From Rubripirellula obstinata (lineage in GTDB: Bacteria > Planctomycetota > Planctomycetia > Pirellulales > Pirellulaceae), in contig NZ_LWSK01000034.1 in the NCBI RefSeq assembly GCF_001642955.1, positions 1 to 52,417 of the forward strand: 52,417 nt of DNA. Reading direction: 5' to 3'. Of this stretch, positions 6,399 through 52,417 are shown one piece after another. Position 1 is the first letter of the stretch; the number at the start of each line of letters is the position of its first letter. The notes below the pieces were generated by a model, which did no database searches, had not been told where the DNA came from, and saw nothing but the letters and a program-made list of their open reading frames with translations. The position numbers and the translations under genes are program-made.

Positions 6399-6653
6399 GT
6401 GTAGCCGAGTTTGTCTCAAACTCGATCGTGCTGGATTGGCAAACGGCGCGACCGTGGGAGGTTGAGACAACCTCCGCTACACAGTGTAGCCGAGTTTGTC
6501 TCAAACTCGATCGCGTTTGATTGACAAACGGCGCGACCGTGGGAGGTTGAGGCAACCTCCGCTACACAGTGTAGCCGAGTTTGTCTCAAACTCGATCGCG
6601 CTTGATTGGCAAACGGCGCGATCGTAGGAGGTTGAGACAACCTCCGCTACACT
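6399..6653 (+). repeat. Three tandem 85-bp copies of a paired-hairpin (BIME-like) repeat
   Basis: Units start at 6399, 6484 and 6569 with an exact 85-base period and differ by only a few bases. Each unit has a left hairpin, GTAGC foot then CGAGTTTG-tct-CAAACTCG, and a right hairpin GGAGGTTG-aga-CAACCTCC followed by GCTAC, which is the left pattern inverted. In the second and third copies a few stem bases vary. It lies between two co-directional genes. Confidence 0.93.
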
Positions 6654-6734
6654 TTGCTAAGCTGAACAAAAGAGCCCCCGCCGATGCGGGTGACGAAACT
6701 AATAACATTGATTGAAAGAGAAAAGGCGAAGCAC

Positions 6735-7133
6735 ATGGGAATGATCAAAGATTTTAAAGAGTTTGCGTTCAAAGGAAATCTGATCGATATGGCGATCGGG
6801 ATCATCATGGGGACGGCTGCCGCCGCGATCGTGAAATCGTTTATCGACAACATCATTTCGCCGCTGATCGCAGTCGTCGCCGGGGTGCCAGACATGTCGG
6901 GTTTGAAATACCCGCTCGGTCAAACGATTGAAAATGCCAAAGGCGAAACGGTGCAAGCTGCGATTCACTACGGGACCTTTCTGCAAAATGTGATCGACTT
7001 CACCATTTTGGCGTTCGTCATCTTCCTTGCCCTGCGAATCACCAGCAAATGGATGAAAAAGGCCGAAGCGGAAGCTCCCACGCCTCCGGACATCGTTCTT
7101 TTGACCGAAATCCGTGACGCCCTGAAGAAATAA
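6735..7133 (+). CDS. mscL: Large-conductance mechanosensitive channel MscL
   Basis: A 132-residue homopentameric inner-membrane channel that opens under membrane tension to release osmolytes; the length matches the family (about 136). The amphipathic N-terminal helix (MIKDFKEFAFKGNLIDMAIG) leads into TM1 (GIIMGTAAAAIVKSFIDNII), followed by a periplasmic loop, TM2 (VIDFTILAFVIFLALRI) and a charged C-terminal helix. The start at 6735 is preceded by an AAAAGG stretch; ATG 6741 is a close alternative. An upstream in-frame ATG at 6684 would add a non-family extension. It is a single gene between the tandem repeat and obg. Confidence 0.96.
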   Translation: MGMIKDFKEFAFKGNLIDMAIGIIMGTAAAAIVKSFIDNIISPLIAVVAGVPDMSGLKYPLGQTIENAKGETVQAAIHYGTFLQNVIDFTILAFVIFLALRITSKWMKKAEAEAPTPPDIVLLTEIRDALKK

Positions 7134-7222
7134 TCTTGGCGTGCTACAATCAACGATTCACAGACGGCTGATCCGATTTGGACCAGCCGTTTTTCATAGC
7201 AGCCAGTTCAAAGTCAGATCCG

Positions 7223-8365
7223 ATGTTCGTTGACCGTATCCAAATCCACCTGATTGCCGGCACCGGCGGCGACGGCTGCATGAGCATGCGTCGCGAAAAG
7301 TACGTGCCACGTGGTGGCCCCGATGGCGGCGATGGCGGCGACGGTGCGAGCATCATTCTGGAGGCTCAATTAGGCGTGAACAGCTTGGCAGCCCTGATTG
7401 GCCGCCACCATTACCGCGCGCCCGGCGGCAGCAACGGCAGGGGCGCGAAATGCAATGGTAGGAAAGGGAATGATGTTCACATCCAAGTCCCACCGGGCAC
7501 GACGGTCATCGATGCAGCGGGCGGATTTGTGATCAAGGATCTCAAAAAGCCCGGCGATCAGTTCGTGATTGCTCGCGGTGGCAAAGGTGGCAAGGGCAAC
7601 GCTTACTTCAAAACCAGCACCAACCGTGCGCCTCGCGAAAGCACCCCCGGCGAGGTCGGTGAAGATCGATTGGTGATTCTGGAACTAAAATCCATCGCCG
7701 ATGTCGGCTTGGTCGGAAAACCCAACGCGGGCAAGAGCACGTTGCTTAGCCGAATCAGCAGTGCGCGACCCGAGATCGCCGATTATCCGTTCACCACAAA
7801 GCATCCCAACTTGGGCATCGTTGACGTTGGCGAACGTTCCTTTGTGCTCGCTGACATTCCTGGATTGATCGAAGGTGCCAGCGAAGGCATCGGGCTGGGG
7901 CATGAATTCCTGCGACATATCGAGCGAGCCGGATTGCTGGTACATCTGGTTGAACCAGAGCCCACCGACGCAACCGATCCGATCGAAAACTACAAAGCCA
8001 TCCGCGACGAACTGCGCCAGTACGACGAAGACCTAGCCAAGCGAGACGAAATCATTGTCGTCACGAAGTGTGAATCCGAGTCGGCAGCAGAAGTTCAAGA
8101 AGCACTCGCGTCGATGACCGGCAAGCCCGTGTTCCTGATCAGCGCCGTAGTTGGCGACGGTTTGGATAAGTTAAAGACTGAAATCATCGATCGTGTTGAG
8201 GCTAGACGTGCGCAGATGATCGAGGATGGCGAAGAGGTCACGTTGCTGCGTGAAGCGGACGTGGAAGCCAGTGATATTGGACGCACCAAACGTGTGCCAC
8301 CTCACTTGGCCGGTCCCACCAGCGACCTTTCGGACGATCGACAAGCCAAGGACGTCGAATCTTGA
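7223..8365 (+). CDS. obg: Obg/CgtA family ribosome-associated GTPase
   Basis: A GTPase involved in late assembly of the large ribosomal subunit, 380 residues. The Obg fold at residues 1-157 is glycine-rich ([20 protein letters not shown], then GGDGGDG). The G domain has G1 GKPNAGKST, the G3 region [16 protein letters not shown], and a G4 that reads VVTKCE where NKxD is expected; this T-K-C variant should reduce guanine specificity only mildly. The C-terminal extension is short. I chose ATG 7223 ([10 protein letters not shown]) as the standard family start. The TGA overlaps the coaX start as TTGA, so the two are translationally coupled. Confidence 0.96.
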
Positions 8366-9189
8366 ACCCAGAACAACGCGTTTGCACCGTCGCGGTCGAT
8401 GTAGGAAACACGGCGGTCAAGTTGGCTGTCCGCAACGGAAACAACATTGCCGATCGATCGATCCCGATCTGTACCAAATCTTGGCATTCGGATGCGATCG
8501 ATTGGGTCAGCGATCAATTGGGCTGCAGCAACATTCGTTGGCTCGTTTCGAGTGTCCATCGAAGTGCTGCCGAGAGCCTGATCCGTGCGATCGAAGATCG
8601 GCCTAGCCAGTCAGCCATCGTGAAAGTGATTCGCCATCAAGATGTTCCGATGCAGGTTTGTGTCGACGATCCGGCATCGCTGGGCATCGATCGGTTACTT
8701 AGTGCGTTTGCGGCTGTGCAGCTCAGTGCGTTTGCGGCTGTCAGCATGGAAAGCAGCACTATAGACGGCAGCGGTGGACTGGTCGTCATCGATGCAGGTT
8801 CCGCGATCACGGTGGACTGGGTCGACGGCAACGGATCGTTTCGAGGCGGCGCGATTCTGCCGGGGTTAAGGTTGCAGGCGAAGTCGCTGGCCACCGGCAC
8901 GGACGCACTTCCCGAGATTGATTGGAATGGGGAATCACTTGCATCTTTGCCCGCAACCAACACTCGCGACGCAATCTTTGGCGGGATTCTGCTTGGCGCG
9001 GCGGGCGCGATCGACACTTTGGCCCAGCATTACTTGCGTCATGATTCGGCATCGATCGATCCTGCTCGAAAAAGCCAGGTCGTGATCACGGGCGGGGACG
9101 CCGCTGCGATTTCAGCACATCTGCAATGCTCTCATCGACATGTTCCCCACTTGGTTTGCCAAGGCTTACTAGAATTAGGTGACGGTTGA
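8362..9189 (+). CDS. coaX: Type III pantothenate kinase
   Basis: Catalyses the first step of coenzyme A synthesis, phosphorylating pantothenate; CoaX uses a monovalent cation and is not inhibited by CoA. The protein has 275 residues. The ASKHA fold motifs are visible: [11 protein letters not shown] (phosphate-1 loop with the catalytic Asp), [10 protein letters not shown], and [15 protein letters not shown] with the GGxIxPG loop. It probably starts at TTG 8362, overlapping the obg stop. An odd feature is a 24-base tandem duplication (8698-8745) giving [16 protein letters not shown] just before the second motif; it is in frame, so the enzyme is probably intact. Confidence 0.93.
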
Positions 9190-9262
9190 CCAAGTTGACC
9201 GTGTTTCTTTGGCGTTTGCCGATGAAATCACTCGTCAATGTTTCCACCCGAGTTGTCGCAAT

Positions 9263-10897
9263 ATGGCTGTCAAGAAACTATCGGACCTGTTGCCGATCAG
9301 TGACAACAACACCAACCCGAATGCCTATCAGGTGTTTGGTTTGACGGTGGGCGAATCGAATTCCGAAGTGATCGAGCGTTCGATCGAATCGATGATCGCG
9401 AAAGTCAAATCAGCCAAGCCGGAAACCGACCCCGCGTTGTGGAAGCAGATTGCCGGAATCGTTCAGGCTGCGCGCTTGACGCTGATCGATCAAGACAAGA
9501 AGTCGAGGCTGGATGCCCGAATCAAGCCTGCTTCATCGTCGGCGTCAAAACCAGTCGATCCATTGGCGGCGTTGTTGCCGCCGGTGAACCCAATGCAACC
9601 GGTCGCTGGCCAGAAATCAACGTCCACCGATGCCGCTTCCCCAAACCCACCCAAGACGCCCAGCTCGATGCCGCCGGGGCTGTTTTCAACGCCGGTAGCC
9701 GACGTTCCAGCCGCCAAGAGTCCCGCGGGTGATCGTGCTCCGATTAAAAAGAAAACCGAAGCTGCGACAGCGAAAGTGAATGTCCCCGACGTGCCGCCTG
9801 AGGTGCCGATCGCACCGTTTTCAATTCCTGAACCAAACGTACCTGAACCGCCGACTCCTGAGCATCAAGTTCCTGGGCGGCAAGTTCCTGAGCAGCAAGT
9901 TCCTGAGAGGCCGATCGTAAGTGACGCATCCGAACGGTCAACCAGACGGCCCAGACGACGGCGAAAGTCGGTCTTTGTTCCCGTGATTATGTCACTGATC
10001 ACGTTGGGATTGATGGCGGTGGTTGGATTGCTGGCCTACGCTCTTTTCTTTCGTCAAGAAACAATCGCAATCTCCAGTAGCGATGGCAGCGTCAACATCA
10101 CGACCGGCAGAAACAATTCAAAGCCATCACCAACCCAACCCGCGGTTCAGCCGCAAGCCCAAATACCAGTTGTCGAGAGCGAACCTGTCCAAAGCGAACC
10201 CGCAAACATGGAATCGCCGCCATCATTTCCGTCAATGTCGATGGAGCCGGCAATAGAGCCGCCGATGGACATGCCAATGAATACAGCGGAGCAAACACCG
10301 CAGGAAATGATCGAGGAAACATCGGCGGCCGAGATGCAGGCAGTTCCAACGTCACCTCCGAATCCAAACGCCGACGCTGAATTGGCAGAATTGACGTCGG
10401 CGATACGCCAGGGTGATTGGTCTGCGATGTCGAAACTTACCGAATCAATCTATCAAATGAAGTTAAGCTCCGAGCAACAGGCCGATGCGGATGGTTTGTT
10501 GAGCGTTGCCGAACTTGCCGTCTACTATCGCAGAGGCATTGAACGAGCGATCGCGGAACTCAACGCTGGCGATGACTTCGAGGTAAAGAACGGCTTTCGA
10601 GTGGTTGTGGTCAGCAAGACAAATCAAAGCTTGGCAGTACGTTACAACGCGAATATTCGAGAATACACTTTCGACGAATTGCCTCTTTCGTTGGCGCACC
10701 GTTTAGCAACCTTTCAGATTCCAGAAGGTCCCAGCGGTGAAGCTGCCAAGGCGGTCTATCAAATGGTCGCCCCCAAATCGAATGCAGGATATCGAACTCA
10801 GGCAATCGGATGGCTCGGGGACATTGAGCAACCTATCGAGGGTGCCGACCGAGACCAATTGGTGCAGACTCTTCAAGCCATCTACGGCGAAAACTAA
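9263..10897 (+). CDS. Single-pass membrane protein with a J-like N-terminal domain
   Basis: A 544-residue protein. Residues 15-90 form a short helical domain (NPNAYQVFGL, LWKQIAGIVQAARLTL, DQDKKSRLDARI) resembling the degenerate J-like domain found in many planctomycete proteins; the HPD of true J-domains is absent. A Pro-rich linker carries three near-repeats (HQVPGRQVPEQQVPERP), then a basic patch RRPRRRRKS and one membrane helix at about 236-262. After it comes a second low-complexity Pro/Met stretch and a conserved C-terminal domain of about 170 residues. I chose ATG 9263, 73 bases after coaX, since the upstream frame overlaps coaX and lacks family character. Its function is not known. 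Confidence 0.78.
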   Translation: MAVKKLSDLLPISDNNTNPNAYQVFGLTVGESNSEVIERSIESMIAKVKSAKPETDPALWKQIAGIVQAARLTLIDQDKKSRLDARIKPASSSASKPVDPLAALLPPVNPMQPVAGQKSTSTDAASPNPPKTPSSMPPGLFSTPVADVPAAKSPAGDRAPIKKKTEAATAKVNVPDVPPEVPIAPFSIPEPNVPEPPTPEHQVPGRQVPEQQVPERPIVSDASERSTRRPRRRRKSVFVPVIMSLITLGLMAVVGLLAYALFFRQETIAISSSDGSVNITTGRNNSKPSPTQPAVQPQAQIPVVESEPVQSEPANMESPPSFPSMSMEPAIEPPMDMPMNTAEQTPQEMIEETSAAEMQAVPTSPPNPNADAELAELTSAIRQGDWSAMSKLTESIYQMKLSSEQQADADGLLSVAELAVYYRRGIERAIAELNAGDDFEVKNGFRVVVVSKTNQSLAVRYNANIREYTFDELPLSLAHRLATFQIPEGPSGEAAKAVYQMVAPKSNAGYRTQAIGWLGDIEQPIEGADRDQLVQTLQAIYGEN

Positions 10898-10912
10898 ACG
10901 ACCGGACGATTC

Positions 10913-12139
10913 ATGGATGCAACCACCCAGCAGACCACTCAATTGCTTAGCCGTTTGATTGAATTTCCGTCAATCAGCAGCACGAGCAACCGTCGAATCT
11001 CCGATGACATCGCTGGTTTTCTGAACGAAATGAGGTTTAGCGTCGAAGAAACGAGTTACGTTGACGACGCAGGGGTTCAGAAAGTGAACCTGGTCGCTTG
11101 CCGTTATCCTGGTACTGACTTTGATCAAGTCGGCGGGTTGGCGTATTTTGCGCACTCCGATGTGGTCCCTGTCCCCACATGGACTGGCCCGAAAAACGAA
11201 AATCAATCCGGGGCCAATCAATCCGGGGGCAATCAAACCGGGGCCAATCAAACTGAGACCAATGCAGCATTCGATCCCGTTCTCTCTGGCGATCGGCTTT
11301 ACGGTCGCGGTGCCTGTGACATGAAAGGCTCGATTGCGACGATGCTAACCGCAGCAGCGTCAATTTCGATTGATGAACAAACACGCCCGTTGTGGATCGT
11401 CTGCACGGCCGACGAAGAAGTGGGGTTCGATGGAGCCAAGCACCTCGTCAAACACTCGGCCGCCTACCGAGACATCGTCCGTGCACAGCCGATTGCGATC
11501 ATCGGCGAACCCACCGAATTAAATGTCGTACATGCGCACAAGGGCATCACCGGTTTTGAGGTCACCAGCCACGGCCGGTCAGCGCATAGCAGTACCGATG
11601 ACGGCATCAACGCAAACGAAGCTTTGATGCCGATCTTGCAACTGGTCGAAGAAATCAATCAAGCGACTCGTCGTGATACCGAATACCACGACCCGCGTTT
11701 TGACCCTCCGCATCTGTCGTGGAATTATGGAATCCGCAATTCTGAATCGGCGATCAACATCACGACCCAGCAAGCCAGCGTTTGGGTCACTTTGCGAACC
11801 ATGCCGGCGATCGACGGCCAGGACTTGATCGAACGGGTTCGACACAAGGCTGCTGAATTGAAACTTGATTTCAAGCTTTACGATGGCGGTTCGCCGGTTT
11901 GGATTGATGCCAATCAGCCCTTCATTGACGAACTTTGTCAGATGACGCACACGTCGCCGCAAGTGGTTTGTTATGGAACCGATGGCGGCGAGTTTTCAGA
12001 ACTTGGTCGCCGCGTGGTTCTGGGGCCCGGCAGTATCGAACAAGCACACACTTCGGATGAATGGATCAGCTTGGATCAATTGAAGGCTGGGACGGCATTG
12101 TATGCCGATCTGATTCGCCGATATTGCTGTCAGGCGTAG
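10913..12139 (+). CDS. M20-family amidohydrolase (ArgE/DapE/CPG2-like)
   Basis: A 408-residue dinuclear zinc hydrolase, probably an N-acyl amino acid deacetylase or related peptidase. Motifs in order: AYFAHSDVV (His ligand and Asp), GRGACDMKG (bridging Asp), CTADEEVGF (catalytic Glu-Glu), GEPTELNVVHAHKG leading into the dimerisation domain, and a late His in QAHTSDEW. The sequence resembles ArgE more than DapE but I cannot choose. Odd: between the first two motifs is an Asn/Gln/Gly insert of about 18 residues (NQSGANQSGGNQTGANQT), made by repeats of about 15 bases at 11200-11263. It starts 15 bases after the previous gene. Confidence 0.9.
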   Translation: MDATTQQTTQLLSRLIEFPSISSTSNRRISDDIAGFLNEMRFSVEETSYVDDAGVQKVNLVACRYPGTDFDQVGGLAYFAHSDVVPVPTWTGPKNENQSGANQSGGNQTGANQTETNAAFDPVLSGDRLYGRGACDMKGSIATMLTAAASISIDEQTRPLWIVCTADEEVGFDGAKHLVKHSAAYRDIVRAQPIAIIGEPTELNVVHAHKGITGFEVTSHGRSAHSSTDDGINANEALMPILQLVEEINQATRRDTEYHDPRFDPPHLSWNYGIRNSESAINITTQQASVWVTLRTMPAIDGQDLIERVRHKAAELKLDFKLYDGGSPVWIDANQPFIDELCQMTHTSPQVVCYGTDGGEFSELGRRVVLGPGSIEQAHTSDEWISLDQLKAGTALYADLIRRYCCQA

Positions 12140-12157
12140 CTGGACAGCGACCTGCCC

Positions 12158-12374
12158 GTAGCTGATCCCGCCAGGGTTCAGTCGAGCTACAACCGCTCGT
12201 GAAGGGTTCTAGTCTGGAAAAACACGTGTTAGATCGTTTAGCCGCGCGGGCATCGCCCCGCGCGTCGCGCGGATCGGAACTTGCGGATCGGAACTCGCGG
12301 GGCGATGCCCACGCGGTTAAACGATTTAGAAACTCTGCATGGCGTTGGACTGAACCCTGAGCGGGATCCGCTAC
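12158..12374 (+). repeat. Nested repeat: one inverted pair inside another
   Basis: The outer pair is the GTAGCTGATCCCGCCAGG family (12158-12181 and 12350-12374). Between its arms is a second element with TTTAGCCGCGCGGGCATCG at 12237 and its inverse from 12296 ending about 12324, followed by a tail shared with 170-205. It lies between the convergent M20 and fliN genes. Confidence 0.88.
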
Positions 12375-12388
12375 GAGTCTAAATAGCG

Positions 12389-12646
12389 TTAGCCATTGCC
12401 GCCGATGATGTCGCGAACTCGCAGGCCGAACTTGTCGCCGATTTTGACGGTTTCGCCTGTCGCGATCACCTTTCCACCCGCTTCTAGCAACAGCGGTTCG
12501 TCGCAATGGGCGTCGAAAGTCAGCATCGAACCGGGCACTAATTCAACGATTCGCGACAATGGGACCATTTTTCGAGCTAGCGTGACGCTGACGGGAGTCT
12601 CGATCGACAAGACGGACTTAGAATAGGCGTTTTCTGCTTGCGGCAT
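12389..12646 (-). CDS. fliN: FliN-type SpoA domain protein (flagellar motor switch)
   Basis: An 85-residue protein consisting almost entirely of the SpoA/FliN domain: LSIETPVSVTLARKMVPLS, ELVPGSMLTFD, PLLLEAGGKVIATGE and VKIGDKFGLRVRDI. In the flagellar C-ring FliN sits at the cytoplasmic base with FliM and FliG. It is shorter than E. coli FliN (137) and lacks its N-terminal extension. No other flagellar gene is in the window, so it is either a scattered flagellar gene, as is common in planctomycetes, or a type III secretion C-ring protein. It is convergent with the M20 gene across a repeat-filled gap and divergent from the NRDE gene. Confidence 0.85.
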   Translation of the reverse strand: MPQAENAYSKSVLSIETPVSVTLARKMVPLSRIVELVPGSMLTFDAHCDEPLLLEAGGKVIATGETVKIGDKFGLRVRDIIGGNG

Positions 12647-12957
12647 CTAAGTCTCCCTTGTGGCGGTTTTCGGCGCTGATCTTTTCCCGGCCCCGTTTCT
12701 GGCGGTGGCAGCCCATTTTGAAGTTATCGGCGGATCTAGCCGGTAAAGATTGCCCAGACTCTTCCGAAGCAACGAAAAAGGCAAATACCATGTGCTTTCT
12801 ACGGGTATCCCCCCGTTGGGGCGGTGTGGTTTGTCGATGCCCGTGGATACATTGGTCAAATCGATTGGCAAGCCATGCATCGCTCACCAGCATGCTGACA
12901 ACGCTGTCGGTCGAAAAAATTAACTAACAACCGATCTTTGAAATCGAAAGCCGCGAG
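12647..12957. promoter_or_regulatory. Divergent region between fliN and the NRDE gene
   Basis: 311 bases that must hold both promoters. The only structure I see is CCCC-gtt-GGGG near 12822-12832. No repeat element of the REP type is present. Short open frames on both strands have no family character. Confidence 0.4.
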
Positions 12958-13737: not shown

Positions 13738-13753
13738 CGCCTCACAGGGTCAG

Positions 13754-13781
13754 CGTAGAACGGAATTCGTTCCGTTCTACG
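13754..13781 (+). terminator. Perfect 12-bp hairpin with TTCG tetraloop between convergent genes
   Basis: The stem CGTAGAACGGAA pairs exactly with TTCCGTTCTACG around a TTCG loop, one of the most stable RNA tetraloops. It lies between the ends of the NRDE gene and a gene on the minus strand. No T-run follows on either strand, so termination is inferred; it also carries the GTAG/CTAC ends of the hairpin repeats elsewhere here. Confidence 0.7.
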
Positions 13782-13795
13782 GATGCGGAGTTTGC

Positions 13796-14413: not shown

Positions 14414-14598
14414 GATGTGAATTACTTCGCTTGGCAGAATTGAAAGTGAAACGGTAGCGTTGATAGGCCGTAGTGGTATTTGCAACCTGGCAATTACTTT
14501 AGCCTCTTTAGTTGGATATTCTTTTAACCGCGTCGTCCACCGGGCAAACCCTTCAAATCATAGTCGGCTCGGTGGTCGGCGTCTTTCGCCTACCAGAT

Positions 14599-15837: not shown

Positions 15838-15924
15838 TGGCTGAACAGGCAGCGGAGCCCAGGCAACACTTTTCCGGTTAGTCTAACGCCTGTTCACATC
15901 AGGAAATCCGTCGTCGAGGAAAAG

Positions 15925-16647: not shown

Positions 16648-16680
16648 GAAACTGTTCTGAAATTGGTTCCCGGTTTTCTC

Positions 16681-16793
16681 GTAGCTGGGCCCGCCAGGGT
16701 TCAGTAAGTGCTCAGTAACTGCTCAGTAACTGTTCAGTAACTGTTCAGGCCATCATTAGGTGTACCCGACTGAACCCTGGCGGGCCCAGCTAC
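16681..16793 (+). repeat. Inverted pair of GTAG-foot repeats with an 11-bp tandem repeat in the linker
   Basis: The left arm 16681-16704 (GTAG foot, then stem halves CTGGGCCC and GGGTTCAG) is matched inverted at 16770-16793. The linker is four to five copies of an 11-base unit (TCAGTAACTGC or similar) that begins with the last bases of the left arm. The upstream flank (GGTTTTCTC) is shared with the copy at 21498. Confidence 0.92.
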
Positions 16794-16856
16794 GAATGAT
16801 TTCGCCAAATACGGAACTTGTTTCAGGACATTTGCTAAGCAGCGAGCGATGTAACA

Positions 16857-16896
16857 ATGCAATTGCCGGAACTGCGTGTTGCTTGTTCCGGCCTAC
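16857..16896 (-). repeat. Single REP-like element, GTAG foot plus GCCGGAAC hairpin
   Basis: Read on the minus strand it is GTAG, then a stem GCCGGAAC paired with GTTCCGGC around a 12-base loop, then AATTGC. The same sequence starts at 35350 in a paired element. It lies about 150 bases before the EEP gene. Confidence 0.85.
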
Positions 16897-17045
16897 GTGA
16901 CGTGTCGTTACGGTTATAGCGATTCTGATTCTCGGGCAATCAAGCATACAGAAACTAGACTCCACGGAACGAAATAAAAGAGGTAAGAGTGCGGTCGCTA
17001 GGCCGTTACTTCGTTTTTCGCTTCCCTCAATTATCCTTGTGAGCC

Positions 17046-18212: not shown

Positions 18213-18232
18213 AAAGCAGGCTCAGGAACGAG

Positions 18233-18314
18233 CGGCAATTCATAGTCGCCTTTCGCTCCGCGAAAGTGCATCAGGTCACACTTTCGCGGAGCGAAAGGCG
18301 ACTATGAATTGCCG
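18233..18314 (+). repeat. Perfect 36-bp inverted repeat between convergent genes
   Basis: The arms 18233-18268 and 18279-18314 are exact inverses around a 10-base loop. Each arm also contains its own 7-bp hairpin (CTTTCGC-tcc-GCGAAAG) with a GTCGC foot. It lies between the EEP gene and the sigma-54 activator gene, so it may end transcription from both sides. A second copy is at 44269-44326. Confidence 0.95.
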
Positions 18315-18322
18315 TTCGATCC

Positions 18323-20344
18323 TCATTCGCCGGAAGTTTGCATCCCGAGCTGACGCATCTTGCGGTACAAGTTCGATCGGTGAAGCCCCAACCGAGCCGC
18401 TGCATCCGTCATATTGCCGCCGCAAGATTCGATCGCTGCATGAATGTGTTCGACCTGAAATTCTTTGGTCGCGTCGGTTAGCGTCGTCGAATCAACGAGG
18501 TCGGCAAGCGATACGTTTTCAGAACTACCTGATGAACCGGAGGTCAACATCAGATCATCTGGTTTGACGACGTCTTCGGTGCAGAGGTAACAAACGCGTT
18601 CGATCGTGTTTCGCAGTTGCCGAATGTTGCCGGGCCAAGCGTGGTTTTTCAGAATCGCGATCGTTGCTTGGTCTAATTCGGGAACCTGGCGGCCGATCTG
18701 ATAACAAAACTGTTTCAGGAAATGCTGGGCCAGCAACAAGACGTCGTCACCACGACCCGAAAGCGGTGGCAAGGTTAGGGAAACCACGTTCAAACGAAAG
18801 AACAAATCCTCGCGAAATTTTCGCTGTGAAATCAGCTCTTCTAGCGGTTGATTGGTTGCCGCGATGACTCGGACATCAACCGGAATTGATTGGGAACCGC
18901 CGACGCGGACCACCACTTTGTCTTCCAACACTCGCAGTAGTTTCGCTTGCCCGCCGGGGCTCATGTCGCCAACTTCGTCCAAGAACAGCGTTCCGCCGCT
19001 GGCTAATTCAAACTTACCGCTACGCGATTGATTGGCGTCAGTGAAGGCACCTTTTTCGTGACCAAACAATTCGCTTTCCAGCAACGTTTCGACCAATGCC
19101 GCGCAGTTGACGGCAATGAACGGTCCGTTTCGCCGCTCGCTTTGATAGTGAATCATTCGAGCGAGTACTTCTTTGCCCGTTCCGTTCTTTCCGAGGACAA
19201 GAACCGAAAGGTCGGTGCCGGCGATCTTTCGAGCGTTTTTGCGAACCAATTCAATCGAGCTGTGTTCGCCAATTAGCTCGGTTTGTGACGCGGCATCGTC
19301 CACCAACCGGTCGCGGTTTTGCTTAAGCTTGCGTCGCGTTCGCAGTGATTCAATCGCAACGGCTGCGTGAGTCGCCAAGTCGGCGAGCACCGCAACGTCG
19401 CTGACGTCAAAGCTGTGATCGATCGCGTTGATTGCTTCAAAGACCCCGATCGTTTCCTTGCGGGCACCTGACATGGGAACCGCGACCAACGATCGCGTTT
19501 GGAACTCGATCCTGGCGTCCACCTTTCGATTGACACGCGATCCATCATCGCTGTCAGCGTTCCAGATTTTGTATTCACCGGTCGCAAGGACTTCGCCAAC
19601 AACACCCGCCTTATCATCGACTTCCAGCGACTCGCCTTCGACACCCAAAGCGGGACGCCCGATAAGCTTGCTGCGGCGACGGTCCCACAGAAAAATACTC
19701 GCTCGTTCACACGACAGCATGCTGGTTGCGGTGTCAGCAATCGCTCGCAACAGTGCCTCGTCGTCCTCGATTCGCTGCCAGTCCGCGGCCGCGGCCAAGA
19801 CCGCCGATAATTGTTCGACACGTCGGTGCTGATATTGGCGATCGTCGATATGCCGCAGAGCCGATGAAATCATCGCTGCGATTCGGTGCGTCCCTGACGA
19901 TCGATTAGCCAGATCCGTCGGCGTTGAGTCAAACTTCAAGACCAATGCTGAAACACGATCCGATGACTCACCAAGGTTTGTGTTTCCAGTAGCCGAACCG
20001 TCATGCTTAGATTGGTTTGATCCATTGTGGATCGAGGTCGGGCAAGGGAATGGCAGGACGCATGTTTGATCCACGCACAGGATCGAACCGCGATCGATCG
20101 CATTGCCAATCAGAATCTCAGGCAGATCTTCAGGGATCCTGGATAAATCCCCGTGGCTGTGATTTCGCGTCCAAGCTCCGTTCTTTTGCGTGACCATGAC
20201 CAGTGCGTTTGCACCAAGAAAATCAAGCAGAACGGGAAAGACCGCGTCGAGGAAGCACTTTCGGTTGGATCGTTCCACCAAAGCTTGGGCAATACTGACC
20301 GCCGGGCCTTCGATGTCGTCGGCGTTATTAGTTAGGTCAATCAA
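18323..20344 (-). CDS. Sigma-54-dependent transcriptional activator with GAF domains
   Basis: A 673-residue enhancer-binding protein. The N-terminal 165 residues look like a degenerate GAF, followed by a clear GAF domain at about 185-330 (SIFLWDRRRSKLIGRPALG, SLVAVPM). The AAA+ domain (about 370-600) has Walker A GKNGTGKE, Walker B-like TLFLDEVGD, and the loop that contacts sigma-54 reads GAFTDA where GAFTGA is normal. The C-terminal Fis-type HTH ends the protein (DAAARLGLHRSNLYRKM). The start is TTG 20344 with AGGA about eight bases upstream. It should act with RpoN bound at a -24/-12 promoter; the genes it controls cannot be told from the window. Confidence 0.92.
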   Translation of the reverse strand: MIDLTNNADDIEGPAVSIAQALVERSNRKCFLDAVFPVLLDFLGANALVMVTQKNGAWTRNHSHGDLSRIPEDLPEILIGNAIDRGSILCVDQTCVLPFPCPTSIHNGSNQSKHDGSATGNTNLGESSDRVSALVLKFDSTPTDLANRSSGTHRIAAMISSALRHIDDRQYQHRRVEQLSAVLAAAADWQRIEDDEALLRAIADTATSMLSCERASIFLWDRRRSKLIGRPALGVEGESLEVDDKAGVVGEVLATGEYKIWNADSDDGSRVNRKVDARIEFQTRSLVAVPMSGARKETIGVFEAINAIDHSFDVSDVAVLADLATHAAVAIESLRTRRKLKQNRDRLVDDAASQTELIGEHSSIELVRKNARKIAGTDLSVLVLGKNGTGKEVLARMIHYQSERRNGPFIAVNCAALVETLLESELFGHEKGAFTDANQSRSGKFELASGGTLFLDEVGDMSPGGQAKLLRVLEDKVVVRVGGSQSIPVDVRVIAATNQPLEELISQRKFREDLFFRLNVVSLTLPPLSGRGDDVLLLAQHFLKQFCYQIGRQVPELDQATIAILKNHAWPGNIRQLRNTIERVCYLCTEDVVKPDDLMLTSGSSGSSENVSLADLVDSTTLTDATKEFQVEHIHAAIESCGGNMTDAAARLGLHRSNLYRKMRQLGMQTSGE

Positions 20345-21497: not shown

Positions 21498-21613
21498 GTA
21501 GCTGGGCCCGCCAGGGTTCAGGTTCAAGTTTAAGTTCAAGTTCAAGTTCAGTTCAAGTTCAAGCTCAGTTCAGCGAGAGCTATGCTCGACTGAATCCTGG
21601 CGGGCCCAGCTAC
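21498..21613 (+). repeat. Inverted GTAG-foot repeat pair with a 6-bp microsatellite linker
   Basis: Same family as the element at 16681: left arm 21498-21521 and inverted right arm 21590-21613 (the right arm has one change, TGAATCC). The linker 21521-21574 is built of TTCAAG/TTCAGT-type units of about six bases, again starting from the end of the left arm. It sits between fabI and the peroxiredoxin-like gene. Confidence 0.92.
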
Positions 21614-23221: not shown

Positions 23222-23228
23222 AGACATC

Positions 23229-28353: not shown

Positions 28354-28390
28354 TTCACGATCACAATCCCTAACGACTTGCCAACTAAAG

Positions 28391-28440
28391 TGAGCCGCGA
28401 CGCGTAAGCGGCCGGGCCTACAGCGACCGGCCCTACCGCG
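28391..28440 (+). repeat. GC-rich hairpin repeat between convergent genes
   Basis: Two adjoining hairpins: CCGC/GCGG around a 9-base loop, and GGCCGG at 28410-28415 with CCGGCC at 28427-28432. The core AGCCGCGACGCGTAAGCGG fits the AGCCGCG-type repeats also seen around 12240 and 46527. It lies between the convergent DUF4129 and nucleotidyltransferase genes. Confidence 0.65.
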
Positions 28441-28524
28441 CCAGCCCAAGTCCTTACTGCCAGCGGTTCATCATTGCCGTTGGGATTTCTATTGAATCGA
28501 CAAACCGATGAGTCCTAATCTTTG

Positions 28525-29993: not shown

Positions 29994-30067
29994 GTAGGCC
30001 GTCATGGTCGGAGCGAAATACGGCAGGTGCGCTCGTGCCGTATTTCGCTCCGCTCAATACGGCCTAT
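29994..30067 (+). repeat. Paired GTAG-foot repeat of the GCCGTA/TACGGC family
   Basis: The left half begins GTAG, then GCCGT, and ends TACGGC; the right half has GCCGTA ending TACGGC then CTAT. Together they form a long imperfect palindrome in the gap between lysC and the methyltransferase gene. Related copies are at 31926 and 52303. Confidence 0.88.
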
Positions 30068-31925: not shown

Positions 31926-31958
31926 GTAGGCCGTACCCGGGCGGAGCGAAGTACGACC
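31926..31958 (+). repeat. Single GTAG-foot REP of the GCCGTAC family
   Basis: GTAG followed by GCCGTAC, a loop of 14 bases and GTACGACC; one unit of the family at 29994, without an inverted partner. It lies between the lysC and apgM-like genes. Confidence 0.8.
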
Positions 31959-33278: not shown

Positions 33279-33367
33279 GCCCACGGATGGCTTTCGCAGA
33301 CCTACTGATAATTGCGCTCAAATTCCTCGCGCAAAATCCGTGGGTCTGCAAAAGCCATCCGTGGGGC
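33279..33367 (+). repeat. Long inverted repeat of the CCACGGATGGC family
   Basis: The left arm 33279-33302 and inverted right arm 33343-33367 share GCCCACGGATGGCTTT and AGACC; one arm has TTTCGC and the other TTTTGC. It lies between recQ and the apgM-like gene. A related element is at 2092-2184. Confidence 0.9.
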
Positions 33368-35349: not shown

Positions 35350-35442
35350 GTAGGCCGGAACAAGCCGCTTCGGCGCAGTTCCGGCAATTGCATTGCTGGG
35401 CATTGAATTGCCGGAACCGCGCTTCGCTCGCTCCGGCCTACA
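35350..35442 (+). repeat. Paired GTAG-foot repeat of the GCCGGAAC family
   Basis: The left unit 35350-35391 is GTAG, then GCCGGAAC, an inner hairpin GCCG-ctt-CGGC and GTTCCGGC; the right unit 35403-35442 is its inverse ending CTAC. It lies between recQ and the kinase gene and shares its left unit with the copy at 16857-16896. Confidence 0.92.
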
Positions 35443-42431: not shown

Positions 42432-42503
42432 AGACGACACCATCGCACATCATATTTACTCAGCTCAAAAACACTCAGCAGCCTCAAGCCGGTAGGACAC
42501 GAA

Positions 42504-44249: not shown

Positions 44250-44268
44250 GATCGAGCTGAAGAGATGT

Positions 44269-44326
44269 GTCGCCTTTCGCTCTGCGAAAGTGCGTCAAAT
44301 CACACTTTCGCGGAGCGAAAGGCGAC
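44269..44326 (+). repeat. Inverted repeat of the GTCGC-foot CTTTCGC family
   Basis: Left arm 44269-44292 and right arm 44303-44326 differ at one base and each has an inner hairpin CTTTCGC-(tct or gga)-GCGAAAG. Same family as the perfect repeat at 18233-18314. It lies inside the pil operon, between its second and third genes. Confidence 0.9.
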
Positions 44327-44412
44327 TATAAATAACCGCTCTTTTTTCAACCTATCGTTTTTACACTTCACGATCCTCGTCAATTTCAGTTCCCACGTTA
44401 GGACAGCGAATC

Positions 44413-46458: not shown

Positions 46459-46758
46459 TCGTAGCAGTGAGGCTCGGAGGTGTGAGCGAACGTCCGGCTT
46501 CGATATCTACGCGAAGCAGGCAATCTAGCCGCGTAGCGGTGACAGCACTTTGCCGGGTGCGTGAGCACCCGGATCATGTCGCCCCTTGAATGTCTTTGCC
46601 GCGATCTCGGAGGTTGCCGGCGACCTGCCCGTGGCTGATCCCGCCAGGGTTCAGTCGAGCTTGATCCGATCGTGGACTGAAGCCTGGCGGGATCAGCTAC
46701 GGTTTTGAACCGTCTCTAAGCGGACGTCCTCTCACCACTCACAGCACGGCATGCGACC
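46459..46758. repeat. Repeat-filled gap between the pil operon and the sigma gene
   Basis: 300 bases between convergent genes, packed with hairpins: GCGG/CCGC-type repeats at 46527-46541, an 8-bp hairpin CCGGGTGC-gtga-GCACCCGG at 46553-46572, and a pair of the GTAGCTGATCCCGCCAGG family with arms at 46631-46654 and 46677-46700. An outer imperfect inverted pair (GTGAGCGAACGTCC near 46482 and its partner near 46721) brackets them, as if one element sat inside another. Confidence 0.8.
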
Positions 46759-48447
46759 TTACGCACCAAGCTCGACGTCGATCTTTGCTTCGTCGGCGGC
46801 TTCGCGAAGTTTGGACAGAGCCCGTGCTTCCAGTTGGCGAATACGTTCCTTGGTCACACCCAATTCTGCACCAACTTCTTTTAGCGTCAGAGGTTCCTTG
46901 TCGCGGCCGAGACCAAACCGAGCGGTGATGATCTTCTGCTCGCGTTCGTCCAGTCGCCCCAAGATTTTTGACAGCTCGCGCTGACGAGTTTTCTGAACCG
47001 TTTCTTCGGTGTAGGGATCCAAACGCTCGTCTTGCTTAGATACAAACAGCTCTTCGGTCGTGGTGCGGAACCGATCGCGATGCTTGAATTCCGTTGGAAT
47101 CGATCGGGCGAAGTTTTTCATGATCGCCCAGGAAGCGTAAGTGCTGAACTTGTTGCCCCGCGAATAATCAAACTTCTCAGCAGCACGAATCAATGACATG
47201 TTGCCATCGCTGACCAGCGAGAAAAAATCATCGGTGCTGGCAACGTGACGTTTCGCAATCGAAACCACCAGTCGTAAATTGCTTTGCACGATCTTGTTCT
47301 TCACCAACACTGCCTGCTCGTACAGGTCATTGATCTCGCTCATCAAAAGCGACTTGTTGGCACTCGGACGCAACAAGTGCTGACGCAGGACGCTGGCTTT
47401 GTGCTTCAAGTAGTTCATTTTGCGGAACAGATGATATTCCTGTTCGCGTGTCAAAAGCGGCACATCGTAAAGGGCGGCCAAATAGCTTGGCAAATCCGAT
47501 GGAACTCGGATCTTTCGTGCAGCAACGGCTGGCTCGGGAACCGGCCCAAGGAATTCAGATTCGCGGGCAGCAGCGTCAGATGCCGACAAGTTGAAGTCAT
47601 CGTTATAGATGTGATCCAACGGCAATTCCATCACCTGCTCGATCCGCATGTCTAGCAAAATTCGATTGATGCTGGTGCGTGTTCGATTGAACCGCTTGCC
47701 AAGGGTTGTCACGGTCGCGCCATGCGTGTGCAGCTTAAAGATTGAACGCTTGTCTTCTTCGGTCAACACATCGCGATGACTTGGGAAGATCGCAACGGCG
47801 CGGTGGTCGGCGTCAAAGTTCTTCAGCGTGTAGCGGACTGTTTCGGGACTGCGGCCCATTTGAGCCGACAACTGCCGCGTCACATCGGCAAAGGTTGCAC
47901 CGGCTTCGACCATTTGCCGAGCCCGTTCAATCATCTCGCCCTTTTCTTCTTCGGACAACTGGCTGAACCGTTCGCCACGTCGAATTTTGTCTTGGTTGTT
48001 TGCTGCAAAACGTTCGACGCTGCTGTGCAAGAACCCAACTCGTTTGCGTCCGCCAAACATCAACCGACGACTCAACAAGCCAGCCGTTCGCCAGCGAGAG
48101 ATTGTTTTGGTGGAAACGCGGAACATCCGGCTGAGTTCCTCGACCGTGTGAACGGGTTCGCCAACTTCATCGACAGAAATATCAGCCGAGTCAGACAGGT
48201 CGTCGATCAGCAATCGAAGGTCATGCAGCACATCGACGCCAGCCAAGTTCTGGCGCACCGATTTTTCGTTGCGATAATTGGTGATGCGGAAACAAAGATA
48301 TTCGAGCGAGTAGGACCGATCGGCGTCGATCTCTGCGTAGAGTTTCTCTGTGAGAGCAATCTGTTCGACCTTCTTTGCCTTGGGGGCAAAGCGTGCCAAT
48401 TGATCTCGTAATTCCTTGAGGTGGCTATTTCGATATTCTTCGTGCAT
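46759..48447 (-). CDS. RpoD-family sigma factor with HTH-rich N-terminus
   Basis: A 562-residue sigma-70 protein. Region 1.2 is seen at about 319-351 (LPSYLAALYDVPLLTREQEY), region 2 at about 380-450 (RLVVSIAKRHV, SDGNMSLIRAAEKFDYSRG, FSTYASWAIMKNFARS) and region 4 at about 490-552 (LTLKEVGAELGVTKERIRQLE). Only about 40 residues separate 2.4 from 4.1, so domain 3 is reduced or missing. In place of region 1.1 there is a 300-residue part with a MerR-type HTH (about 99-147, TVEELSRMFRVSTKTISRWR) and two further HTH-like segments near 170-212 and 230-265. ATG 48447 has a strong AGGGAG site. Confidence 0.93.
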   Translation of the reverse strand: MHEEYRNSHLKELRDQLARFAPKAKKVEQIALTEKLYAEIDADRSYSLEYLCFRITNYRNEKSVRQNLAGVDVLHDLRLLIDDLSDSADISVDEVGEPVHTVEELSRMFRVSTKTISRWRTAGLLSRRLMFGGRKRVGFLHSSVERFAANNQDKIRRGERFSQLSEEEKGEMIERARQMVEAGATFADVTRQLSAQMGRSPETVRYTLKNFDADHRAVAIFPSHRDVLTEEDKRSIFKLHTHGATVTTLGKRFNRTRTSINRILLDMRIEQVMELPLDHIYNDDFNLSASDAAARESEFLGPVPEPAVAARKIRVPSDLPSYLAALYDVPLLTREQEYHLFRKMNYLKHKASVLRQHLLRPSANKSLLMSEINDLYEQAVLVKNKIVQSNLRLVVSIAKRHVASTDDFFSLVSDGNMSLIRAAEKFDYSRGNKFSTYASWAIMKNFARSIPTEFKHRDRFRTTTEELFVSKQDERLDPYTEETVQKTRQRELSKILGRLDEREQKIITARFGLGRDKEPLTLKEVGAELGVTKERIRQLEARALSKLREAADEAKIDVELGA

Positions 48448-49353
48448 CGACCATTTCTCCCTGTGCTGAGGCGGCTGTCGTTCAAATAGTCCCTGCGACC
48501 CCGGCGGATCGCACGACAACTCGTCTCGGTTATTTCCCGGGTGCCGACCCATCCGTGATCGGCTTCGTTGGGACACTTCAAACATCGTGTACGGTGGTGA
48601 CACGTTTGGTCAAAGTGTTAGCGACTCCTTGCCGCTGACTCAATTTTGCGCTACGCGTCAATTCGACGCGAGTACTTCTTGTTTGACAGATTGATTTTAC
48701 TCAAAGTTCGCGTGAAACATTCATTTTAGGCTGCCACGACCACTGAATCCGAACACGTCGGCATTGGCGGGTAAACCCCCGAAAGTTGGACGCGAATCCG
48801 ATTTGACCAACTGACCAGCTAAGTGACTAGGAAATCCCGGGCCAAAACCAAATTTTTCGAGGCCAAGGTGCCAGCAGATCTCCGCAAACACAGTGATTCG
48901 CGACCAATTCAGACCGAAAAACAATTCCAAGCGATCCACCGGTTCCCACGCCCCCCCGCTGGCCCTTTGTAAAACTTTCATGCCTTTGAAGGTTATGACG
49001 TCTCAGATTGCGATCGCGATTGCAGCGATAGACGTGCTTTCCTGCCATCTGGGGCTCAGGAATTGTCCCCAAATTACTTTCTCAGATTGAATTTCACCCA
49101 ATCACCACCCGAACGGGTAAGCGAGGGATTTCCCAGCCAAGAGAGATCTCTCGCTTACGCGTTTGGGTTGGGAACGGGTTGGGAAATCGGGAAGTTGCTT
49201 CGGTACAGTTCCGCAATGGGCCAGATGCGCCTCATATTTTTCCAACACGTTCTAAACCACAGGACCCTTTCTAGACGATGACTACACCTGATGCCTGCAA
49301 TGGGAATCACCGTCACGGATTCCCACCATTCATTTTCTCGACTCGGACGACCG
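48448..49353. promoter_or_regulatory. Long divergent region between the sigma gene and a secreted protein
   Basis: About 900 bases without a gene I can support. Minus-strand and plus-strand promoters must lie here; I could not assign them. Short open frames at 48721-48981 have no family character. An imperfect inverted repeat with GTAAGCGAGGGA at about 49107-49128 and its inverse at 49147-49168 lies near the right end. The region near 48683 contains TTGACA on the plus strand without a good -10 element. Confidence 0.4.
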
Positions 49354-50955
49354 ATGTTTTCTCGAAAATCCTCCTTGAACGATTCACGACTTAGCCTGCC
49401 CAAGTCAACCGATCGGCGTCGGTTTTTGATGGCGGCGTCCGCCACCGCGATGCTGGGTGGACTATTGCTCAGCGACGCCACGACCGGTGTTGCCGACGCG
49501 GCTCGTCCCACAAACGGTGTGCGTTTGATTCCAAACGCGGAAACAGATTTGTTTCGCGTTCGAATTGACCTGGATGTCGAGGGCAACGTGGACCTGGCCG
49601 CCAATCCGTTGGTGTCTCGCAAGTCCGCGTCCAAGCTGCCGATCAGCAGCAAGGCTAAGTTCGATTACGAAGAACGTTATCGTCGTCCAGAAAACCGAAA
49701 ACGGTCGGTATCCGATTCGGCGATCAGCGACCCGGTCACCTTCGCCGAACGCTACTACCACGAAGCATCGGCCGATTTGAATGTAAGCAAGCTAAAGCAA
49801 ACCCGCGAGCTACGTGATTTGGTGAAGACAACCACGGTGCGCCGCGAAACCTTGCCAGAAGTGCTATACGCTAACGAAGATTATTTCAGTCGAGACGAAC
49901 TGGATCTGCTGCATTTGCCGGTGTCCAGCATTGGTGTCGATCACTTGCTACCGACTGGCGAAGTGTCACAGGGGACCAAGTATCGTCCCACGCCTGAATC
50001 GCTTGCGTCGGCTTTCAACATGACGTCCGTCGACGCATCGGAAATCGAGGCCGAAGTGGTGTCGATTACCCGCGACGAAGCCAAAATCCAATTTCGCGGA
50101 AACGCAGACGGATCAGTCGATGGTGTTCCCACGATCATTCGTACGGTTGGCAAATTGACTTTTGATCGACGGATCGGTGTTTGCACGTGGCTTGCGATGG
50201 CAGTTCACGAAACGCGAGACATCGGAATCGCCAAGCCTGGTTTTGATGTCGCCGCCACGATCAAAATGCTACGCAAACCGATGGCATCGCCCATCGGCTT
50301 GGAAAAGAAATTGCCATCGGTGGACGTCACCGGGCCCATTCCTGCGGATCGTTTGTACGTGGATTTGCACAGTGATCGAATCGGGTTCGATACTTTGATG
50401 AACCGCGATTGGCGGATGATGTCGGACGTTCCTGGTGCCGCGATGATGCGGATGGTTCGTCACGATCGAAGCGTCGCGCAGTGCGATTTCCGCAGTCTGC
50501 CTTCGCTGGCACCTGGCAAGCAATGGACCCTGGAGGCGTTTACTCAGGACGTCAAGCAAACCCTCGGCAATCAGTTGACTGATTTGATTGATTCCGACGA
50601 ACGGGTTTCGCCGCTCGGGCTCCGCGTCCTACGTGTGACGGCAGCCGGTTCGGTCCAGGGCGTGCCGATTCAGTGGGTGCTGATGCACTTTTCAGACGAT
50701 TCGGGCCGCCGGATGCAGGCGACCTTTACTCTGGAAGCGGACAACGTAGACGCTTTCGCCGGTTCGGACCTACAATTAGCCAGTTCCTTGCGACTGACGG
50801 GCCGCAAATCCGAATCCGTGAAGGATGGCAGCCAGCAAACCGATGCGGAAATGGCCCAATCGGCTGAAAACACCCCGGCTTCTACCCGGATCGCCGACGC
50901 AATCTCTAAACGTGCCAAGAAAACCGAAGTACAATCGGCAAGTGATCTGAAATAA
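49354..50955 (+). CDS. Twin-arginine-exported protein of unknown function
   Basis: A protein of about 533 residues. The N-terminus has STDRRRFLMAASATAMLGG, with the RRxFL core of a Tat signal peptide followed by a hydrophobic segment and a likely cleavage near ADAA. The mature part has no motif I can name; it is rich in Asp, Arg and Val and may be mixed strand and helix. I prefer ATG 49354 for its proximity to the signal; ATG 49291 would add 21 residues and is also possible. It is 44 bases before the next gene on the same strand, so probably an operon. Confidence 0.75.
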   Translation: MFSRKSSLNDSRLSLPKSTDRRRFLMAASATAMLGGLLLSDATTGVADAARPTNGVRLIPNAETDLFRVRIDLDVEGNVDLAANPLVSRKSASKLPISSKAKFDYEERYRRPENRKRSVSDSAISDPVTFAERYYHEASADLNVSKLKQTRELRDLVKTTTVRRETLPEVLYANEDYFSRDELDLLHLPVSSIGVDHLLPTGEVSQGTKYRPTPESLASAFNMTSVDASEIEAEVVSITRDEAKIQFRGNADGSVDGVPTIIRTVGKLTFDRRIGVCTWLAMAVHETRDIGIAKPGFDVAATIKMLRKPMASPIGLEKKLPSVDVTGPIPADRLYVDLHSDRIGFDTLMNRDWRMMSDVPGAAMMRMVRHDRSVAQCDFRSLPSLAPGKQWTLEAFTQDVKQTLGNQLTDLIDSDERVSPLGLRVLRVTAAGSVQGVPIQWVLMHFSDDSGRRMQATFTLEADNVDAFAGSDLQLASSLRLTGRKSESVKDGSQQTDAEMAQSAENTPASTRIADAISKRAKKTEVQSASDLK

Positions 50956-50999
50956 CCATTTCCTGCCCATTTACGACATTTTCACGCCGAAAGCTATTC

Positions 51000-52067
51000 A
51001 TGTTCTCGCGACCTCGACCATCGATTCAACCCAGCTTGGCAACCATTGTCACGTCTGGGCCAATATCCGGCCTGATGTTGACGGCAGCTTTGGTGTGCAT
51101 GTCGGTGACCGCGACGGCGCAGGCTCCGCTCGGTCTCGGCGCAGCAAAGTCAGAAGCAAAGAAGGATCCTTCGACCTCTGAGGAAACTCGTTTTGCACCG
51201 GGCGTCATGCAAGTGATCCCGCCTGCGCCGGAACCTGAGGAAACCTTTGCGGGGCCTCAGACCTTGCAGTCGCTTTTGGACGCACACCCCGAGATTCAAT
51301 TCGGTGGTGAAACTCATCCCGATGGATCGCCGCACTTTGATCCGCGTTCGCGAACGTTGGTCGAGATGGCCAAGCAAGTGATTTTGCGGCGTGAGATTTA
51401 CGCATTCGAATTTGCGTTCAAGCCGCTTCGTCATGTTTACATTGATGTGCCACGTGCCGACGGACGAATGCAACGCAAGTTGATTTGGTACATGGTTTAC
51501 CGAGTTCGCTACCGCGGCGGCGACTTGCGACCTTCGGCCGACATAATCGCCGGCGTGCCGATTTACAAACGTGTCGAAGAAGTTCACTACAACAACCGTC
51601 GGTTCTTTCCGATGTTGGTGCTTCGAAATCAAAGCACGGGGACTGCCTACGTTGACCGAGTTCTGCCAAGTGCTGCGGACAAAATCAAAGTACGCGAACA
51701 AATCACCGCGCCGCTTTACAATTCAGTTGAGATCACTCGCGTCAAAGTCCCGTATTCCGGTGACGCTGCCGCTGGTGGAATTTGGGGAGTCGCGACATGG
51801 GAAGACGTTGACCCAGACATCGACTTTCTTTCGGTCGAGGTCAGTGGTCTAACGAATGCGTTTGAACAAGATGGCGAAGGCATGGATGCACCGTACCGCA
51901 GAAAAGTTCTACAACTGAACTTCTATCGTCCCGGCGACAAAGTTGCACAAACCGATGACCGAATCCGGTTCGGCGTGCCCGCTTACGAGAACAAAGCCGA
52001 GCAGGATTACATTCTCGAGCAATACGGCCTGGACGAACGCCTCGACTACCGATGGCTGTTTCGCTAG
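51000..52067 (+). CDS. Secreted protein of unknown function
   Basis: A 355-residue protein with a signal peptide at about residues 20-40 (GLMLTAALVCMSVTATAQA) and a Pro/Glu-rich stretch, then a beta-rich region: YAFEFAFKPLRHVYIDVP, KLIWYMVYRVRYRGGDL, FFPMLVLRNQSTGTAYVDRV, and a C-terminal DERLDYRWLFR. No family is recognised. It follows the Tat-exported protein gene by 44 bases, so the two may form an envelope unit. Confidence 0.76.
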   Translation: MFSRPRPSIQPSLATIVTSGPISGLMLTAALVCMSVTATAQAPLGLGAAKSEAKKDPSTSEETRFAPGVMQVIPPAPEPEETFAGPQTLQSLLDAHPEIQFGGETHPDGSPHFDPRSRTLVEMAKQVILRREIYAFEFAFKPLRHVYIDVPRADGRMQRKLIWYMVYRVRYRGGDLRPSADIIAGVPIYKRVEEVHYNNRRFFPMLVLRNQSTGTAYVDRVLPSAADKIKVREQITAPLYNSVEITRVKVPYSGDAAAGGIWGVATWEDVDPDIDFLSVEVSGLTNAFEQDGEGMDAPYRRKVLQLNFYRPGDKVAQTDDRIRFGVPAYENKAEQDYILEQYGLDERLDYRWLFR

Positions 52068-52417
52068 GGACCGCGTGAACAACAATTCAGATAGCGAATC
52101 TCACAGAGAGATTCGGCCGTGCGGGAAATCAAAAGTCTCTGCGACTTTCGCTACTTCAAAGCTCGTCACTTATTGATCACGCCGTACTAAGCATCGATTC
52201 GTCCGTGCAGCGTCAAAGTTCAGTCTTCAAACCAGCCGTGGTTGAGTTTGTGGTGATTTAGGTTAGCGCAACTCGCTTTCCCAAACGCCTTGCGTCTCGA
52301 AAGTAGGCCGTAGCGAGCCATAGCGAGTTACGGCGGTGCGCGAATTGCCGTAACTCGCTTTGGCTCGCTACGGCCTACATACTGGCGATCAGGGAAATGT
52401 GCCGTTGCCACAATGCT
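52068..52417. other. Gene-free right end of the window
   Basis: 350 bases after the last gene. Apart from the paired repeat at 52303-52378, I see no gene, promoter or RNA with support here. Confidence 0.6.
52303..52378 (+). repeat. Paired GTAG-foot repeat with a 30-bp-plus palindrome
   Basis: Left half 52303-52334 (GTAG, GCCGTAGCGAG to GTTACGGC) and right half 52347-52378 (GCCGTAACTCGC to TACGGCCTAC) are near-perfect inverses, and each half alone also folds on GCCGTA/TACGGC. It is the GCCGTA family seen at 29994 and 31926 and is downstream of the last gene. Confidence 0.93.

Follow-up and report, generated by a model that had tools for sequence, protein, structure and literature searches.

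The stretch of DNA studied here, referred to as the window, is the whole 52,417-nucleotide contig NZ_LWSK01000034.1 of Rubripirellula obstinata (C236 among the 307 contigs of a 6.58 Mb genome labelled G000). Its gene gaps contain short hairpin-forming elements, for which an original prediction had proposed a common layout, a GTAG foot directly followed by a hairpin and mostly by an inverted partner ending in CTAC, and an identity as repetitive extragenic palindromes (REP) or bacterial interspersed mosaic elements (BIME) mobilized by REP-associated tyrosine transposases (RAYT). Our analysis makes it very probable that these elements are REP units, mostly arranged as inverted dyads (REP doublets forming hairpins, REPIN, or BIME), which would have spread as single-stranded hairpins by the action of Y1/HUH transposases, and that many such systems with at least three different feet are present. 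Copy number, bias among gene gaps and Y1 genes flanked by the repeats support the proposed identity; the foot is not GTAG in families F7, F8 and F11.

Allowing for at most one mismatch, the core of F1 is found 465 times in the genome, the core of F8 608 times and F5 636 times, with 1, 1 and 0 hits of the respective reversed-pattern controls, and the core of F7 has 160 exact copies (reversed control, 1), so that these four families run to hundreds of copies. Relatives were searched in 20 genomes, consisting of the own genome, 12 of the same genus and others. The maximal numbers of copies in the 12 congeners are 4 for F1, 1 for F5 and 3 for F7, while F8 has 420 copies in one of them (G003) and at most 7 in each of the others. 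Three exact F1 copies are located around one open reading frame (ORF) of G001, which from reading alone we take to be sigma-factor-like, and G012 has one F1 dyad; no Y1 gene is found at these F1 loci. Pattern-free clustering of intergenic dyads gives 41 sites for F5, 39 for F8, 31 for F1, 28 for F4 and 21 for F7, as well as 19 for F17, 14 for F11, 13 for F9, 12 for F16, 5 for F15 and some smaller groups. A sample of 1,488,785 bases in 45 pieces (the 1.49 Mb sample), part of them picked near Y1 genes and part by contig number or size, was searched with 14 unit patterns and yielded 730 units; F1, F4 and F5 are high-copy and intergenic, and in this sample F2 is represented by just 10 units and F6 by 6. 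The commonest islands in an earlier, smaller sample (the first 0.59 Mb) are isolated single hits and dyads with outward feet, accompanied by arrays and a few composites (F1-F8-F8-F1). The F13/F14 repeats by the IS200-type gene C244 are confined to one stretch of that smaller sample.

The units are unevenly distributed with respect to genes, which were called with a simple caller of our own, on which all gap counts rest. When gaps of 60 bp or more in the 1.49 Mb sample are considered, units occupy 61 of the 104 convergent gaps, 142 of the 403 co-directional gaps and 29 of the 137 divergent gaps (Fisher p 4e-9 for convergent versus divergent gaps, and 2e-5 for convergent versus co-directional gaps). 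The F7 pattern used in this analysis is too loose, giving 45 control hits in the same run, and therefore the counts without F7 are also reported: 54/104, 127/403 and 27/137, respectively (p 2e-7 for convergent versus divergent). Only 66 of the 730 units fall inside genes, the loose F7 pattern accounting for 40 of these. The outcomes that according to the prediction would speak against mobile REPs, single-copy families or equal abundance inside genes and in divergent regions, are not observed. For the window itself, the prediction had assigned elements to six of seven convergent gaps, the seventh gene pair overlapping, and to almost no divergent region. A multicopy family, with F3 counted, is present in five of the six non-overlapping convergent gaps, the gap at 28354-28524 being without one, and in just one of the six divergent gaps; in the sample, divergent gaps are depleted, not empty. 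The divergent gap 4648-5460 probably corresponds to a missed gene. Copies would persist mainly between genes because selection removes those that land in genes and promoters.

The elements of the window were checked by gap reading, inverted-repeat search, folding as single-stranded DNA and a recheck of coordinates (Table 1). GTAG is left unpaired in front of the hairpin in the F1, F2, F4, F5 and F6 units tried, with fold z values of -1.5 (GGCC variant of F1) and -1.8 (F6), down to -6.4 (F2); the values for F6 and the F1 variant are weak, so that neither is convincing alone. In the window, the 7,627 bases called as intergenic contain 27 GTAG-hairpins, whereas 20 first-order shuffles of these bases have 3.95 on average and never more than 7; other tetranucleotides precede 3 to 15 hairpins. 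Sequence reading, inverted-repeat search and coordinate recheck agree that the predicted elements exist. Their proposed layout is complete in the dyads at 16681, 21498, 35350 and 52303; one end differs in those at 29994 (CTAT) and 46631 (GTGG), the units at 12158, 16861-16896 and 31926 stand alone, and the element at 13755-13780 is a single palindrome. F8, F9 and F11 are further multicopy elements of the window that had escaped the prediction. F3 was at first regarded as single-copy, which was dropped when relatives turned up at four further positions in the 1.49 Mb sample, and F9 was discarded as a GTGG-foot family, GTGG lying at the inner ends and the outer ends being variable.

Table 1. Repeat elements of the window, with positions counted from its first nucleotide.
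Element	Position	Strand	Remarks
F8 dyad	118..178		TTAA-type foot; GTTTAAC on right unit
F9 dyad	2093..2182		inverted repeat; multicopy
Three F2 dyads in tandem	6399..6656		GTAGC foot; F2 also flanks Y1 gene C281
Lone F1 unit (GTAGCTGATCCCGCCAGGGTTCAG)	12158..12181	+	from sequence reading and fold
F8 dyad	12230..12328		composite with adjoining F1 unit
F3 palindrome	13755..13780		GTAG pairs with CTAC (double foot); low-copy family
F1 dyad	16681..16793		GTAG and CTAC ends
Lone F4 unit	16861..16896	-	from pattern match and GTAG-hairpin scan
F7 dyad	18224..18323		extended arms, AGGAACG ends
F1 dyad	21498..21613		GTAG and CTAC ends
F6 dyad	29994..30067		GTAG left, CTAT right
Lone F6-like unit	31926..31957	+	two mismatches
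F9 variant dyad	33281..33364		multicopy family
F4 dyad	35350..35441		GTAG and CTAC ends; F4 also flanks RAYT C306
F7 dyad	44269..44326		inverted repeat
F1 dyad	46631..46700		GTGG left, CTAC right
F11 dyad	49096..49179		class-3-like; CCGA foot
F5 dyad	52303..52378		GTAG and CTAC ends; F5 arrays surround RAYT C33

The spacers of two F1 dyads (16705-16769 and 21522-21589) are short tandem runs of CAGTAACTGTT and GTTCAA types, and a decayed F17-like unit is located on the minus strand at 52131-52154.

The original prediction anticipated several RAYTs in the genome, and several RAYT-type genes with matching flanks are indeed present. The PF01797 profile identifies 11 places and the NCBIfam model NF047646 15 places, the latter adding C301, C281, C266 and weak parts of long ORFs; three of the four such parts inspected have no tested family nearby, the exception being C237, with F4, F7 and F8 within 2.5 kb. 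C33 and C306 exceed the NCBIfam RAYT cut-off and C281 falls short of it, and C33 matches Escherichia coli TnpAREP (4ER8) with an E value of 2.9e-41. Seven of the 13 Y1 genes tested carry their own family on both flanks within 1.2 kb, namely C33 (F5), C306 (F4) and C281 (F2), whose families are among those of the window, and C301 (F15), C266 (F16), C13 (F10) and C261 (F12). Two-sided flanking by chance at random places amounts to 0.00015-0.0045 per family; F2, F4 and F5 had been derived from the window prior to any inspection of the flanks, and F10, F12, F15 and F16 were defined from the flanks of Y1 genes. In addition, a Y1 gene of G003 has F17-like units on its flanks. Each of these transposases would move its own family, by recognizing the short unpaired foot together with the hairpin and transferring the unit in single-stranded form. 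Relatives of the C306 and C33 RAYTs in named records are labelled as planctomycete in 21 of 22 cases and only as 'bacterium' in the other one; several of these 22 loci have GTAG stems of their own (GTAGGCCGTAACAAG, GTAGGGTGGGACAAGC and others), and several have dyads lacking a clear GTAG end, or no dyads. The C306 protein has just weak partial matches in three genomes of the 12 congeners (24-42% identity, E 1.6e-5 or weaker).

F8 fails the GTAG-foot criterion, its foot being GTTTAAC in 67 of 111 units and GTTTAGC in 20 of them. This foot is followed by CGCG-T-GGGC-ATC-GCCC-CGCG, with Watson-Crick pairing at each stem position in 88-106 of the 111 units. An HUH gene is located within an F8 array of the congener G003, and its protein reaches 46 bits with the RAYT model (cut-off 80) and 23 bits with the IS200 model. 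All 28 aligned relatives of this protein match the RAYT model (E <=0.01). Within the order, 88 of the 396 genomes contain matches to the F8-type protein at E 0.001, and many of these matches are weak. Around 31 genes (the 30 best with loci and that of G003), the flanking 500 bp contain GTTTAAC 108 times versus 2.5 expected, GTTTAGC 25 versus 3.0, GTTAGC 21 versus 8.3 and GTGTAGC 9 versus 2.2. A clade of 19 genes is recovered in the tree with support 100/99, and 18 of these have GTTTAAC within 500 bp, 17 on both sides and L245 as a single copy, the remaining gene, L250, having GTTTAGC instead. Genes outside this clade are accompanied by GTTTAGC, GTGTAGC or GTTAGC, except for L258, with none of the four motifs, and L261, where they are mixed. 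The stems of these relatives vary yet stay hairpins (after GTTTAGC, CCGGCCGCTTGCGGCCGG, CCCGGCGGCCACGCCGGG and CGCCGCGTCCTCGCGGCG), and several GTTTAAC units have a weak or different fold. Same-orientation F8 tandem arrays with a period of ~100 bp are also found at G003 loci L191-L194, some with more than 20 copies among those listed.

Residues 95, 100, 101 and 104 of TnpAREP concern GTAG, according to the sections of PMC6006769 and PMC8266576 consulted. With loop residues numbered by equal W-to-Y spacing, that is, by alignment alone, C33 reads WQPRFWEHTVR where TnpAREP reads WQPRFWEHAIR, and thus keeps W94, Q95, E100, H101 and R104, whereas C306 has V at position 104. The 19-gene clade keeps the W; position 95 is occupied by A, N, T or G (by Q in L250), K, I or R takes the place of E100, H101 is mostly replaced by V, and R104 has given way to D or E in every one of the 19 genes. 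Position 104 is N in L256, L259, L260 and L263, which have GTTTAGC, and D in L257, which also has GTTTAGC. The part that reads the foot may be the loop corresponding to residues 95-104 of TnpAREP, and both this reading by the transposases and the mobility of the families are what we infer. The correlation of foot and loop is confounded by shared ancestry. The evidence leans towards REP systems not being bound to GTAG, with an HUH clade of this order for a TTAA foot (GTTTAAC), relatives for TTAG (GTTTAGC, GTTAGC) or GTAG (GTGTAGC), a loop that has shifted too, and hence a guide reprogrammed in nature.

Several observations weigh against the reading of the elements as REP units moved by foot-reading Y1/HUH transposases. 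Three GTAG-flanked genes, C266, C301 and, in G003, the one at 1,726,076, do not have the TnpAREP-like WQ...E/D...R loop, so that this loop is no universal mark of GTAG systems. C237 has F4 on both sides, a family shared with C306; C239 has F10 on one flank and F9 on the other, and it is one of three genes, with C177 and C35, that have a family on one side or differing ones; C90 and C244 have no flanking family of the tested set. In this assembly no transposase could be assigned to F1, F3, F6, F7 or F9. No F1-flanked Y1 gene is found at the Y1 loci of the own genome or of its relatives, and inspection of Y1 genes revealed no F6 array, F6 being outside the pattern sets of the flank tests and the assembly being gapped. 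No F8-type transposase gene is found in the own genome despite its 608 F8 copies; the ends of several contigs fall within or close to F8 or F5 units, so that the gene may lie in an assembly gap.

Some of the Y1 loci have further peculiarities. The Y1 protein of L004 (C239, ~11,000) has ~330-350 aa and a C-terminal part that matches DnaA at its end (NF009087, E 2e-6; TIGR00362, E 8e-6); Y1 ORFs of similar length are present in G001 and G003. At L035 (C237, ~49,000-51,000) the Y1 gene is followed 1.6 kb on by a shorter copy of its start, with F4 units nearby. ORFs C2:28014 and C266:16701 (~370-400 aa) match the RAYT model weakly, have no tested family nearby and are perhaps domesticated relatives.

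For F7, another kind of mobility has to be considered. The GTCGC foot predicted at 18233 and 44269 turns out to lie within the longer F7 element, and F7 was dropped as a plain GTCGC-foot REP. In many genomic copies TCGC pairs with GCGA, leaving ATAG or AGTG as the foot, which is not the case at 18233/44269. It is a real possibility, if not the favored one, that F7, and perhaps F9, are miniature inverted-repeat transposable elements moved through their outer ends by a different kind of transposase, as the arms of many F7 copies are extended and end in AGGAACG-type sequences, the whole reaching ~100 bp, and none of the 13 tested Y1 genes has F7 on both sides. Other F7 copies, however, are without extended arms, and lone F7 units fold with an unpaired ATAG ahead.

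It could also be argued that the TTAA-foot system is the published class 3 of Y1 proteins, and thus already described. F8-type and C261 proteins have 22% identity (pairwise E 1e-9) and a common TYGxWLPxDxRG, and class 3 is found mainly in Planctomycetes, Acidobacteria and Proteobacteria with high-copy repeats, as described in the part of PMC6006769 used here. The same part, however, reports a CnGA foot and a Y----Q motif for class 3, versus TTAA/TTAG feet and YVxxNP in the F8-type clade, so that F8 fails to match the class on both counts. Examples with CnGA and Y----Q coexist alongside the F8 type. F11, whose CCGA foot fits CnGA, resembles the repeats around a protein with NHVH, WAERG and YVIDRQ in the congeners G006 and G009, where it shows the full combination of CnGA foot and flanked Y1 with NHVH, W[TA] and Y----Q (L082/L083), and C261 with F12 is of the same class-3-like sort, the feet of both being C-rich nGA; none of the 13 Y1 genes tested in the own genome is flanked by F11. 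An identity of the TTAA-foot system with class 3 is therefore unlikely. Repeats with at least three feet, GTAG, CnGA (F11, F12) and TTAA (F8), coexist in the genome. No TTAA-foot REP family appears in the portions of PMC3733652, PMC6006769 and PMC8266576 consulted, supplements apart, although an earlier description is possible.

That the hairpins are terminators or stabilizers of mRNA 3' ends, locally arisen and selected, is very improbable, since stable hairpins that fill convergent gaps most and divergent gaps least would suit such a role, but not the hundreds of near-identical copies here with almost none in 12 congeners, nor the arrays, composites, Y1 genes between matching units and conserved unpaired foot. 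As mobile REP units, the hairpins may still contribute secondarily to termination or to the stability of RNA.

The GTAG families resemble the REP/BIME/REPIN of E. coli and their RAYT (TnpAREP) in foot, hairpin, inverted dyads, extragenic location and high copy number, and differ from them in that many families with separate Y1 genes are found in one genome. GTAG repeats of Planctomycetes, with several families per species and family-specific REPtrons, were already reported (PMC3733652), the section consulted treating GTAG- and CGTC-tagged repeats and containing no TTAA-tagged superfamily. The 2018 survey, in the part used here, reports that 12 species have up to four genes belonging to different class-2 subclasses (PMC6006769), which is a different measure from ours. 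A single bacterium that combines many REP systems with separate transposases lends itself well to studying the coexistence of repeat populations. The TTAA-foot clade provides a natural series of feet and matching proteins, so that guide reading and the choice of cleavage site by TnpAREP-type enzymes become testable: if the published guide model applies, a TTAA foot should select TT or TA, not CT, cleavage sites.

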